Assembly: GCA_004764695.1 (NCBI GenBank)
Contig: SMSO01000006.1
Location: forward strand, 1,736,859-1,800,858
Length of the DNA stretch: 64,000 bases
Source of the DNA: Schizochytrium sp. TIO01
Taxonomy: Eukaryota > Sar > Bigyra > Thraustochytrida > Thraustochytriidae
Direction: 5' to 3'
The notes under the pieces were generated by a model. It had not been told where the DNA came from, made no database searches, and saw nothing but the letters and a program-made list of their open reading frames with translations. Position numbers and translations under genes: made by a program. Positions 56,596 through 61,534 of this stretch are shown piece by piece. Positions within the stretch are counted from its first letter, which is position 1, and each line of letters begins with the position of its first letter.

Positions 56596-59500
56596 ATGTC
56601 AGACCACCCACGTGTTGTCGCTGCTCTTGAACAGCTTCAGAATGGCGCTACAACACTGAAGTAAGTTAAGACGCTCGCTCGCTCGCTCGCTTGCTTGCTT
56701 GCTTGCTTGCTTGCTTGCTTGCTTGCTTGCTTGCTTGCTTGCTTGCTTGCTTGCTTGCTTGCTTGCTTGCTTGCTTGCTTGCTTGCTTGCTTGCTTGCTT
56801 GCTTGCTTGCTTGCTTGCTTGCTTGCTTGGTTGATTTATTGAGTATGCATCAATCGAAGAAACATCAAAATGAGAGCACAACAAAGGTGAAATCCTGAAA
56901 GCCAACCTAGATCACTCACGTCCATGCATTCATGCATCTAATGTAATGTGTAATATGTTGTTTGCCATCATTGCATCAAATCGACAGTCTATATAGGAAC
57001 AAAATCGGCTCAGAGGGCGCCAAGGCAGTGGCTGCGGCGCTGAAAGAGAACCGGTCGCTGACATCACTCAAGTAAGTTGTCTACGCAACACCGCAGCTCG
57101 TGGACTTGTTTGTACATGATGCTTGGTTTGTTGTTTGGTGGGTGGGTCGATGTTGTTTTGCAAGTTTATGCAATCTCTTGTTTGTTTGATGGATGGATGA
57201 GTTGTCTGTTTGAGTGAGTATACATCCATCGAACAAAGAGCAAAATGACAACACAACAAAGATAAATGCTGAAAGCCAACCTAGATCACTCACGTCCATG
57301 CATGCATGCGTGCATCTATTGTAATATGTAACGTGTAATGTGTTGCTTGCCACCATTCAATCAAATCGACAGTCTTGACGGCAACTATATCGGCTCAGAG
57401 GGCGCCAAGGCAGTGGCTGCGGCGCTGAAAGAGAACCGGTCGCTGACATCACTATCGTAAGTTGTCTACGCAACACCGCAGCTCGTGGACTTGTTTGTAC
57501 ATGATGGTTGGTTTGTTGTTTGGTGGGTGGGTCGGTGTTGTTTTGCAAGTTTATGCAATCGCTTGTTTGTTTAATGGATGGATGCGTTGTCTGTTTGAGT
57601 GAGTATACATCCATCGAACAAAGAGCAAAATGACAACACAACAAAGATAAATGCTGAAAGCCAACCTAGATCACTCACGTCCATGCATGCATGCGTGCAT
57701 CTATTGTAATATGTAACGTGTAATGTATTCCTTGCCATCATTCAATCAAATCGACAGTTTTAAGTGGAACGAAATCGGCTCAGAGGGCGCCAAGGCAGTG
57801 GCTGCGGCGCTGAAAGAGAACCGGTCGCTGACATCACTATAGTAAGTTGTCTACGCAACACCGCAGCTCGTGGACTTGTTTGTACATGATGCTTGGTTTG
57901 TTGTTTGGTGGGTGGGTCGGTGTTGTTTTGCAAGTTTATGCAATCTCTTGTTTGTTTGATGGATGGATGAGTTGTCTGTTTGAGTGAGTATACATCCATC
58001 GAACAAAGAGCAAAATGACAACACAACAAAGATGAAATCCTGAAAGCCAACCTAGATCACTCACGTCCATGCATGTATCCAATGTAATGCATTTCAATGT
58101 AATGTATTCCTTGCCATCATTGAATTATATCAACAGTCTTAGTCTCAACAATATCGGCTCAGAGGGCGCCAAGGCAGTGGCTGCGGCGCTGAAGAAGAAC
58201 CGGTCGCTGACATCACTCAAGTAAGTTGTCTACGCAACACCGCAGCTCGTGGACTTGTTTGTACATGATGCTTGGTTTGTTGTTTGGTGGGTGGGTCGGT
58301 GTTGTTTTGCAAGTTTATGCAATCGCTTGTTCGTTTGATGGATGGATGGGTTGTCTGTTTGAGTGAGTATACATCCATCGAACAAAGAGCAAAATGACAA
58401 CACAACAAAGATAAATGCTGAAAGCCAACCTAGATCACTCACGTCCATGCATGCATGCGTGCATCTATTGTAATATGTAACGTGTAATGTATTGCTTGCC
58501 ATCATTCAATCAAATCGACAGTCTTAGAAGCAACGAGATCGGCTCAGAGGGCGCCAAGGCAGTGGGTGCGGCGCTGAAAGAGAACCGGTCGCTGACATCA
58601 CTCGAGTAAGTTGTCTACGCAACAGCGCAGCTCGTGGACTTGTTTGTACATGATGGTTGGTTTGTTGTTTGGTGGGTGGGTCGGTGTTGTTTTGCAAGTT
58701 TATGCAATCGCTTGTTTGTTTGATGGATGGATGGGTTGTCTGTTTGAGTGAGTATACATCCATCGAACAAAGAGCAAAATGACAACACAACAAAGATGAA
58801 ATCCTGAAAGCCAACCTAGATCACTCACGTCCATGCATGTATCCAATGTAATGCATTTCAATGTAATGTATTCCTTGCCATCATTGAATTATATCAACAG
58901 TCTTAGTCTCAACAATATCGGCTCAGAGGGCGCCAAGGCAGTGGCTGCGGCGCTGAAGAAGAACCGGTCGCTGACATCACTCAAGTAAGTTGTCTACGCA
59001 ACACCGCAGCTCGTGGACTTGTTTGTACATGATGCTTGGTTTGTTGTTTGGTGGGTGGGTCGGTGTTGTTTTGCAAGTTTATGCAATCGCTTGTTTGTTT
59101 GATAGATGGATGGGTTGTCTGTTTGAGTGAGTATACATCCATCGAACAAAGAGCAAAATGACAACACAACAAAGATAAATGCTGAAAGCCAACCTAGATC
59201 ACTCACGTCCATGCATGCATGGGTGCATCTATTGTAATATGTAACGTGTAATGTATTAATTGCCATCATTCAATCAAATCGACAGTCTCTGTGGCAACAA
59301 AATCCGCTCAGAGGGCGCCAAGGCAGTGGGTGCGGCGCTGAAAGAGAACCGGTCGCTGACATCACTATCGTAAGTTGTCTACGCAACACCGCAGCTCGTG
59401 GATTTGTTTGTACATGATGCTTGGTTTGTTGTTTGGTGGGTGAGTCGGTGTTGTTTTGCAAGTTTATGCAATCGCTTGTTTGTTTGATGGATGGATGAGT

Positions 59501-61534
59501 TGTCTGTTTGAGTGAGTATACATCCATCGAACAAAGAGCAAAATGACAACACAACAAAGATAAATGCTGAAAGCCAACCTAGATCACTCACGTCCATGCA
59601 TGCATGCGTGCATCTATTGTAATATGTAACGTGTAATGTATTGGTTGCCATCATTCAATCAAATTGACAGTCTTAGAAGCAACTTTATCTACTCAGACGG
59701 CGCCAAGGCAGTGGCTGCGGCGCTGAAACAGAACCGATCGATGACATCACTCAAGTAAGTTGTCTACGCAACAGCACAGCTCGTGGACTTGTTTGTACAT
59801 GATGCTTGGTTTGTTATTTGGTGGGTGGGTCGGTGTTGTTATGCAAGTTTATGCAATCGCTTGTTTGTTTGATGGATGGATGGGTCGTCTGTTTGAGTGA
59901 GTATACATCCACCGAACAAAGAGCAAAATGACAACACAACAAAGATAAATGCTGAAAGCCAACCTAGATCACTCACGTCCATGCATGCATGCGTGCATCT
60001 ATTGTAATATGTAACGTGTAATGTAATATATTGCCTGCCTTCATTCAATCAAATCGACAGTCTTGAAAGCAACTGTATCGGCTCAGAGGGCGCCAAGGCA
60101 GTGGGTGCGGCGCTGAAAGAGAACCGGTCGCTGACATCACTATAGTAAGTTGTCTACGCAACACCGCAGCTCGTGGACTTGTTTGTACATGATGCTTGGT
60201 TTGTTGTTTGGTGGGTGAGTCGGTGTTGTTTTGCAAGTTTATGCAATCGCTTGTTTGTTTGATGGATGGATGAGTTGTCTGTTTGAGTGAGTATACATCC
60301 ATCGAACAAAGAGCAAAATGACAACACAACAAAGATAAATGCTGAAAGCCAACCTAGATCACTCACGTCCATGCATGCATGCGTGCATTTATTGTAATAT
60401 GTAACGTGTAATGTATTGCTTGCCATCATTCCATCAAATCGACAGTCTTCAACACAACCAGATCGACGACGAGGGCGCCAAGGCAGTGGCTGCGGCGCTG
60501 AAAGAGAACCGGTCGCTGACATCACTATCGTAAGTTGTCTACGCAACACCGCAGCTCGTGGACTTGTTTGTACATGATGCTTGGTTTGTTATTTGGTGGG
60601 TGGGTCGGTGTTTTTTTGCAAGTTTATGCAATCGCTTGCTTGTTTGTTTGGTTTGTTTGATGGATGGATGGATGGATGGATGGGTTGTCTGTTTGAGTGA
60701 GTATACATGCATCGAACAAAGAGCAAAATGACAACACAACAAAGATAATAGCTGACAGCCAACCTAGATCACTCACGTCCATGCATGCATGTATCTAATG
60801 TAATGCATTGCAATGTAATGTATTGCTTGCCATCATTGAATTATATCAACAGTCTTCGTGCGAACAATATCGGCGACGAGGGCGGCAAGGCAGTGGGTGC
60901 GGCGCTGAAAGAGAACCGGTCGCTGACATCACTCGAGTAAGTTGTCTACGCAGCTCAAAGACGTTTTTGTACATGATCCTTGCTTTGTTGGTTGGTGGGT
61001 GGGTTGGTGTTTTTTTGTCAAGTTTTGTTTAGCAAGTTTACTCGATTGCTTGTTTGTTTAATTCTGTTTTTGCTTGTTTGGTTGGGGTGGATGCAACAGA
61101 GAGCATGACCACATCAAAGGAGAAATGAAATTGTACTATCATTCCTTTGGTACCTTAGATGAGGTTCAATTGTTAACTGACGAACGGAGATGATGCTATT
61201 TGGTCTGCTAATTCTTAGATTAAGATTGAGCTATGAAGGACAGAGGGAGCTGAAATTGAATGAAGAGATTTATTATGCAAAGACAAGAAGGACAAGTCTT
61301 GAGCAGATCTCTCGTGAGCTTGGTTGTATACATGCTGTAAACAATGCACTTTCTATGCCATCTTCAGTGAAACTCAGTCGTTCTGGACAGAGTCTGCTTG
61401 CTAGCAGTAATGGTGAGCAGAGCTCGAAAGAGGAATTTCTTGCTACGCAGAAAGTAGAGCTTGATATATTGGAAGCTTTAATCGTTGCCTTTAGTGAATC
61501 ATTGCGATTGCTGGGCCCTTACATTTTTGAATGA
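56596..61534 (+). CDS. Eleven-repeat LRR (RNI-type) protein, one repeat per exon, 13 exons
   Basis: Exons: 56596-56660, 56988-57071, 57373-57456, 57758-57841, 58137-58220, 58522-58605, 58901-58984, 59286-59369, 59671-59754, 60061-60144, 60446-60529, 60853-60936, 61219-61534. All introns are GT-AG (GTAAGTT donors, CAG acceptors in all but the last) and phase 2. The eleven inner exons are exactly 84 bp, and the whole reads in frame (434 aa). Exon 1 encodes MSDHPRVVAALEQLQNGATTLN, an LRR cap. Each repeat follows LxxNxIGSEGAKAVAAALKENRSLTSLx, the 28-residue ribonuclease-inhibitor LRR. The last exon is a helical C-terminus without a recognised domain. No signal peptide or transmembrane helix, so probably intracellular recognition or scaffolding. 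The exon module is shared with the divergent minus-strand LRR-kinase-RBR gene. Function is unknown. Confidence 0.88.
56673..56828. repeat. (GCTC)n-(GCTT)n microsatellite, about 155 bp, in intron 1
   Basis: A short GCTC run changes into more than 30 nearly perfect GCTT units, filling much of intron 1 of the plus-strand LRR gene. The minus frame gives the spurious poly(KQAS) ORF. Confidence 0.97.
56988..60936 (+). repeat. Tandem exon-intron repeat array, eleven units of about 385 bp
   Basis: Unit start distances are 385, 385, 379, 385, 379, 385, 385, 390, 385 and 407 bases. Introns are nearly identical over their full length. Two intron subtypes differ near the 3' end: type A has CATGCATGCGTGCATC and ends with CAAATCGACAG, type B has CATGTATCCAATG or a close variant and ends with TATATCAACAG. 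Type B precedes the exons at 58137, 58901 and 60853. Confidence 0.95.

Follow-up and report, generated by a model that had tools for sequence, protein, structure and literature searches.

Homogenised repeats whose face codons are diversified constitute a published design, described for the fungal HET-D/HET-E proteins, for brown-algal LRR-ROCO genes and, in part, for the leucine-rich repeat (LRR) exons of Tetrahymena; the accounts given here draw on parts of the papers cited. In Podospora, the WD40 repeats of HET-D and HET-E (HNWD) undergo concerted evolution, four interface codons per repeat are under diversifying selection, 55 face combinations occur in 69 repeats, and the function is allorecognition (PMC1805685). 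Brown-algal LRR-ROCO genes encode one LRR per phase-2 exon and have four positively selected sites on the concave face (PMC11378527). Tetrahymena LRR genes, more than 1,000 in most species, consist of fixed 90-bp tandem exons with phase-2 introns, and their youngest arrays are concentrated in pericentromeric and subtelomeric regions, with ectopic recombination; the ratio of nonsynonymous to synonymous substitution (Ka/Ks) is mostly purifying, and the parts of that paper used here do not describe hypervariability limited to the face (PMC6564038). Here we analyse a stretch of 64,000 nucleotides from Schizochytrium sp. TIO01 (contig SMSO01000006.1; "the window" below means this whole stretch), in which a predicted gene carries eleven near-uniform LRR exons. 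Judged from the sequence, this gene probably belongs to a putative LRR recognition family in which repeats are homogenised and diversifying selection acts on old face alleles.

The predicted complete gene, a model read from the sequence, spans 56596-61534 and has 13 exons encoding 434 amino acids. Eleven of these are phase-2 exons of exactly 84 nt on the plus strand (56988-60936), separated by introns of about 300 nt, with AG before and GT after every one of them. Each 84-nt exon encodes a single 28-residue LRR of the ribonuclease-inhibitor (RI) type, repeat codon 5 being split between the last two bases of one LRR exon and the first base of the next. Tandem Repeats Finder detected the array independently, with a period of 385 and 10.9 copies. 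The exons of the gene are as follows.

56596-56660, plus strand: exon 1 of the gene model, start codon and MSDHPRVVAALEQLQNGATTL (65 nt)
56988-57071, plus strand: LRR exon 1 of 11 (84 nt)
57373-57456, plus strand: LRR exon 2
57758-57841, plus strand: LRR exon 3
58137-58220, plus strand: LRR exon 4 (same face as exon 6)
58522-58605, plus strand: LRR exon 5
58901-58984, plus strand: LRR exon 6 (same face as exon 4)
59286-59369, plus strand: LRR exon 7
59671-59754, plus strand: LRR exon 8
60061-60144, plus strand: LRR exon 9
60446-60529, plus strand: LRR exon 10
60853-60936, plus strand: LRR exon 11
61219-61534, plus strand: last exon, C-terminal part of about 104 residues and stop codon, without a match to a known family

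We defined the face as 12 nucleotides per exon: nt 5-10, 14-16 and 82-84, corresponding to codons 7, 8 and 10 and the exon end. Within the window array, where 10 units have an intron downstream, pairwise diversity is 0.598 at the face; outside it, the value is 0.053 for the exon and 0.048 for the introns. These values bear out the central claim of a preliminary description of this DNA, made from its letters alone, that eleven near-uniform exons vary at their face codons, and the codons it named (GAC-GGC, AAG-TGG and others) are present in the exons. The even spread of variation over exon and intron that it had named as the contrary outcome is contradicted by the per-site diversity. Its statement on intron conservation needs narrowing: introns are far less diverse than face codons but about equal to the exon backbone, not more conserved than it.

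A wider comparison drew on 220 exons from the window and 20 fetched stretches, the exons being found by likeness to the window consensus with the face masked, which sets a ceiling on the backbone diversity observable. Omitting 20 exons from duplicate stretches (L031 and L034), three without AG/GT and two with more than 15 mismatches gave a set of 195; dropping two more with over 11 mismatches gave 193 (186 distinct) in 18 stretches, one of which, L046, continues the L045 array. Diversity was calculated on the 173 units with a downstream intron and association with introns (V2) on the 156 with both introns. Across all loci, the face has a diversity of 0.600 and the introns one of 0.075; the remainder of the exon has 0.065, or 0.042 if codon 13 and nt 45 are set aside. 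Codons 7, 8, 10 and 5 rank highest in amino-acid diversity among the 193 exons, followed by codon 13, and these exons carry 169 amino-acid faces; the 11 window exons carry 10, units 4 and 6 being identical. The variable positions named in the preliminary description stand, with the refinement that codon 13 also varies over all loci, as a block that reads TCA (105) or GAC (74) in the 195 exons with few intermediates.

The variable zone is sharply bounded. In the same 195 exons, 191 have T at the fourfold site nt 4, 181 have AAC as codon 9, 140 have NRC as codon 8 and 171 have A as the middle base of codon 10. A mutation hotspot at the exon start was rejected because nt 1-4 and 11-13 are almost invariant. 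No stop occurs in codons 6-32 of the 193 exons, and AG and GT are in place for 217 of the 220. The LxLxxNx strand lines the inner face of the LRR horseshoe, and the variable codons are the x positions around that strand. By the LRR consensus and by analogy with the brown-algal genes (PMC11378527), codons 5, 7, 8 and 10 would form the concave face.

The repeat reads LxxLxLxxNxIGxxGAxxLAxxL over about 28 residues, which is the RI-type LRR consensus. Pfam LRR_6 matches 11 stretches of the 434-residue protein (E 4.2e-76), and solved RI chains, which are single proteins with diverged repeats, match it as well. A Pfam scan of the same protein found no nucleotide-binding, NACHT, NB-ARC, WD40 or kinase domain, and so no nucleotide-binding domain of the kind that marks a NOD-like receptor (NLR) of immunity; neither ROC nor COR was matched at E values up to 1, and the C-terminal part matched no family above the cut-off. 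The whole protein has 464 matches at E 0.001 among 8000 scored, and the best 120 of these, at 31-63% identity, are LRR proteins, some of which also carry kinase, BTB or NACHT-type domains; no near relative is among them. Outside the genome, the C-terminal exon matched 0 of 349 candidate proteins at E 0.001, the candidates being 0.55-1.75 times 434 residues long, a filter that would miss short mispredicted pieces. Exon 1, recovered by tblastn (E ≤ 5e-4) in 17 of the 20 fetched stretches, has no signal peptide by inspection.

Set beside the described systems, the family is most like the fungal HNWD NLRs of "high internal conservation" in having near-identical repeats within and between members together with diversified face codons (PMC1805685, PMC12222747), with 169 face combinations in 193 exons here as against 55 in 69 HET-D/E repeats. 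Concerted evolution combined with diversified interface codons appears to be present in both, a likeness in way of working and not in homology. HNWD proteins are WD40 and NACHT NLRs, whereas the present protein is LRR-only with a C-terminal part lacking a family match, and its gene has an intron between every two repeats, a bias towards contig ends and linkage to 5S ribosomal RNA (rRNA) genes. Like the brown-algal LRR-ROCO genes, the present ones are stramenopile genes with a single LRR per phase-2 exon, but the exons have 84 instead of 72 bp, the LRRs 28 instead of 23 residues, and the ROC-COR GTPase domain found there has no match here; the parts of that paper used here do not mention whether face blocks are independent (PMC11378527). 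The preliminary description's comparison with LRR-ROCO is therefore apt as an analogy, since both have one LRR per phase-2 exon and selected concave sites, while identity with ROCO was rejected on exon length, on the missing ROC/COR match and on the thraustochytrid-like genome. The closest named relative of the SUV3 protein encoded in the window is from the thraustochytrid Hondaea fermentalgiana (53% identity over 74%), a match that does not bear out a suspicion that the genome is that of Aurantiochytrium limacinum. With Tetrahymena the family shares fixed-length tandem LRR exons, phase-2 introns, a chromosome-end bias and exchange among genes, although the exons there are exactly 90 bp long and the organism is a ciliate (PMC6564038). 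RI and NLRC3-like LRR proteins share the 28-residue consensus and Pfam LRR_6, and differ from the present protein in its unmatched C-terminal exon. Literature searches on thraustochytrid LRR proteins, labyrinthulomycete subtelomeres and LRR gene conversion or concave sites returned, in the portions of papers covered, no description of the present family, and the term "leucine-rich" is absent from the main text of PMC12221091. Within the reach of these searches, novelty lies in the lineage, in the architecture of the protein, in the linkage to 5S genes and in how far the face is decoupled from its surroundings.

Face blocks are nearly independent of one another and of the introns. About 7 of the 12 face nucleotides differ in every bin of intron divergence from 0.5-1% (mean 7.12, 17 pairs) to 15-30% (mean 6.92, 891 pairs). 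An entire face is shared by 17 of 14878 unit pairs, some of them recent copies of a whole unit, as with window units 4 and 6. In contrasting pairs such as L039_3 and L039_4, 10 of 12 face nucleotides differ at a context divergence of 0.9%, and the rest of the exon is identical. Comparing V2 at equal distance, uncorrected for allele age, face-intron association is 0.009-0.012 at 16-200 nt as against 0.12 for intron-intron pairs at 16-30 nt. In the 193 exons, codon blocks 4-7 nt apart have mean V2 values of 0.011-0.040 (codons 8/10, 0.011; codons 10/13, 0.040), and codon 10 and the exon end 0.000; for common intron sites 6-15 nt apart the mean is 0.31 (only 9 pairs), or 0.37 at a looser frequency cut (67 pairs). 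Mutual-information shuffles on the same 193 exons agreed: 12 of 15 block pairs are consistent with independence (matched by 19 to 465 of 500 shuffles), while codons 7-8 are clearly linked and 7-10 and 10-20 more weakly (0 of 500 shuffles each), counts that are not strict probabilities because the units come from one genome and are related. The end-block trinucleotides tie the Leu wobble base to the following codon (CTA-TC in 53, CTC-AA in 52 and CTT-GA in 48 of 195). We read such block alleles, at the exon end and at codon 13, as probably old, and as shifted by recombination whose breakpoints lie very close together.

A visible conversion-like event is provided by the L033 and L034 arrays. Of 31 mismatches in their 9.3-kb alignment (a count that excludes 126 gap columns), 27 lie inside one tract of about 145 bp that starts within exon 3 and ends in the intron belonging to it. 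The L034 version of the tract resembles common units and is 97.5% identical to unit 7 of its own array, whereas the L033 version is unusual, at best 83.6% identical to other units. None of the nine faces differs between these arrays. More generally, the closest unit by intron sits in the same array in 28% of cases against 7% by chance, and exchange thus appears to occur within and, mostly, between arrays.

The window array and its downstream flank (55801-64000) also recur at 99.6% over 8.2 kb in contig C30 (stretch L031, C30:5514000-5523900), with face differences in 0 of 11 exons. This copy is internal to a 9.8-Mb contig and may be a recent segmental duplication, a haplotype or a misjoin. A (GCTT)n microsatellite of about 40 units (56673-56833) in the first intron differs by 20 bases in length between the window and the C30 copy.

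The gene has many relatives in the genome. A single window unit has at least 397 matches in the 64-Mb genome, and the C-terminal exon has 55: 38 close ones (window included, E ≤ 1e-21), 7 with 42-44% identity, and a remaining 10 whose similarity is weak, partial or interrupted. Of the 25 close members on contigs longer than 1 Mb, sixteen are located no more than 100 kb from a contig end, against an expectation of 4.2% if only match-bearing contigs of that size are considered and genes are treated as independent; 13 further close members are on contigs shorter than 0.25 Mb. Five consecutive copies of the telomere repeat TTAGGG have no match in the genome, so "subtelomeric" refers here solely to distance from contig ends.

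Gene structure, site-limited diversity, near-independent blocks, a conversion-like tract, mostly intact frames and clustering at contig ends are observed features of this family, for which we propose the following mechanism. The gene would belong to a large family, often located subtelomerically, whose products are LRR-only recognition proteins that are probably intracellular. Because each phase-2 exon holds exactly one LRR, an array can gain, lose and swap units with the frame intact. Unequal exchange and gene conversion, both frequent and acting inside arrays as well as between chromosome ends, would homogenise introns and the exon backbone; diversifying (balancing) selection would retain many old alleles at strand-face codons 5, 7, 8 and 10; and conversion would reshuffle face blocks into new combinations. 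We infer that the ligands bound by these proteins are variable and non-self (parasites, viruses or kin) and that the C-terminal part acts as the output.

We take the 8- to 12-fold excess of face over intron diversity as the stronger evidence for diversifying selection. The comparison of nonsynonymous and synonymous diversity (piN and piS) that the preliminary description had proposed as a check gives a modest ratio: in the 193 exons, piN is 0.593 and piS 0.341 at face codons, as against 0.050 and 0.062 at other codons (without 13 and 32). Several observations weigh against selection and exchange as we propose them. The face piN/piS is only 1.74 (1.14, 2.15 and 1.19 at codons 7, 8 and 10), and synonymous sites within face codons vary as well (0.34 against 0.06 elsewhere). 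The ratio is modest because face codons are saturated and synonymous changes travel with the alleles; it is unreliable under saturation, yet it falls short of a textbook signal. Three other variable exon sites show similarly low association with introns (V2 0.007-0.036), so that the loss of linkage belongs to the exon and not to the face alone. Loci were picked by similarity to one window unit, which understates genome-wide intron diversity and leaves the window-only figures unaffected. Three of the 220 exons look damaged (one in L032, two in L035); these are the exons without AG/GT, apparently shifted by insertions or deletions, and one contains a stop. Finally, 7 of the 25 close members on long contigs lie over 250 kb away from any contig end, and for six of these the distance exceeds 1.7 Mb.

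A process that mutates the face codons directly, as a eukaryotic counterpart to templated retro-mutagenesis or to somatic hypermutation, would also yield excess face variation, and the preliminary description had raised a targeted diversifier of this kind. The confinement of variation to a few codons with invariant nucleotides between them (codon 9, nt 4), the restricted make-up of codons 8 and 10 and the divergent faces of L039_3 and L039_4 all fit it. A mutator does not predict block alleles, however: the blocks at codons 13 and 5 are multi-nucleotide, that at codon 5 with a synonymous passenger, and are hard to reach by repeated point mutation, and several variants act like old recombined alleles. 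Neither copied array pair (L033/L034, window/L031) shows a face change, a weak test given that the pairs differ by few point changes, and no positive evidence, template or mutator turned up, no search having been aimed at one. Diversifying selection on homogenised duplicates, the other half of that earlier proposal, is supported by the 193 exons of 18 stretches, and a separate targeted diversifier we consider unlikely. The same improbability attaches to an active process that would target codons 5, 7, 8, 10 and 13 alone, by templated exchange of short patches or by mutation, and would maintain a self-renewing germline or clonal repertoire at chromosome ends; were targeted diversification true, it would give a single-celled eukaryote a self-renewing recognition repertoire. 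On another reading, the face codons are unselected at the amino-acid level over a backbone under purifying selection; the codon-wise piN/piS close to 1 at codons 7 and 10 fits this, and LRR x positions are usually free to vary. Introns should be nearly free too, yet the face exceeds them in diversity about 8-fold (0.600 against 0.075), and about 12-fold in the window array, which makes relaxed constraint very unlikely; the absence of stops reflects coding function only and has no bearing on it.

Collapse or expansion of repeats by the assembler is hardly credible. Two near-identical array pairs (C5/C30 and C31/C14) might be haplotigs or misjoins, but AG and GT are in place for nearly all exons, and the window array does not look like assembler stutter because 10 of its 11 faces differ. 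Selection and shuffling as proposed could also serve purposes other than defence, namely self/non-self recognition (allorecognition or mating) or recognition of food or surfaces. The nearest mechanistic precedent, HET-D/E, is an allorecognition system (PMC1805685), while the lack of a signal peptide in exon 1 argues against a surface receptor; we regard a non-defence role as possible, though not the likelier assignment.

With this family, one-LRR-per-exon arrays extend to a thraustochytrid-like protist, and the "homogenised repeat, diversified face" design is seen there in an unusually clean form: the face is near saturation, backbone and introns scarcely vary, and face blocks 4-7 nt apart have almost no linkage left. 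If the products are defence or self/non-self receptors, the organism would be a tractable single-celled system in which to study how a repertoire of receptors arises and is maintained.

Two 5S rRNA genes lie upstream of the LRR gene in the window.

56013-56131, minus strand: 5S rRNA gene, divergently oriented, 464 bp upstream of the start codon
55852-55970, minus strand: second 5S rRNA copy, in a 161-bp tandem repeat

Of the 20 stretches, 15 were scanned, and 10 of these have a 5S rRNA gene 438-477 bp ahead of the start codon, on the other strand (L031, L032, L036, L037, L038, L039, L040, L044, L047 and L049); the tandem pair occurs in the window and in its copy L031, and the scanned upstream parts of L033 and L043 contain no 5S gene. 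At least 24 of the 38 close members have an upstream 5S gene, 22 by genome-wide positions and 2 by the stretch scan, a lower bound given that 47 of 2196 genome-wide candidates were scored. The 5S gene and the LRR gene seem to have spread together, as one cassette. We suggest from the association with 5S genes and contig ends that recombination homogenising rRNA genes may also drive the repertoire.

The seven C-terminal exons at 42-44% identity mark a second subfamily (C5:7436, C31:5691624, C34:2956872, C30:8374991, C33:1962574, C24:11771 and C24:3989713), with an upstream 5S gene in at least five of the seven; C24:3989713 is uncounted, its 5S gene being already assigned to a neighbour. On the 20-kb contig C27, a small-subunit rRNA gene (L044, 9305-9999) starts 3.75 kb downstream of an LRR gene, which suggests that ribosomal DNA and LRR arrays can be neighbours. 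Within the window itself, the minus strand at 53340-54619 carries another, more diverged gene with apparent single-LRR exons, its LRRs lying near 53340, 53780 and 54155, with an 80% repeat at 54518-54619.

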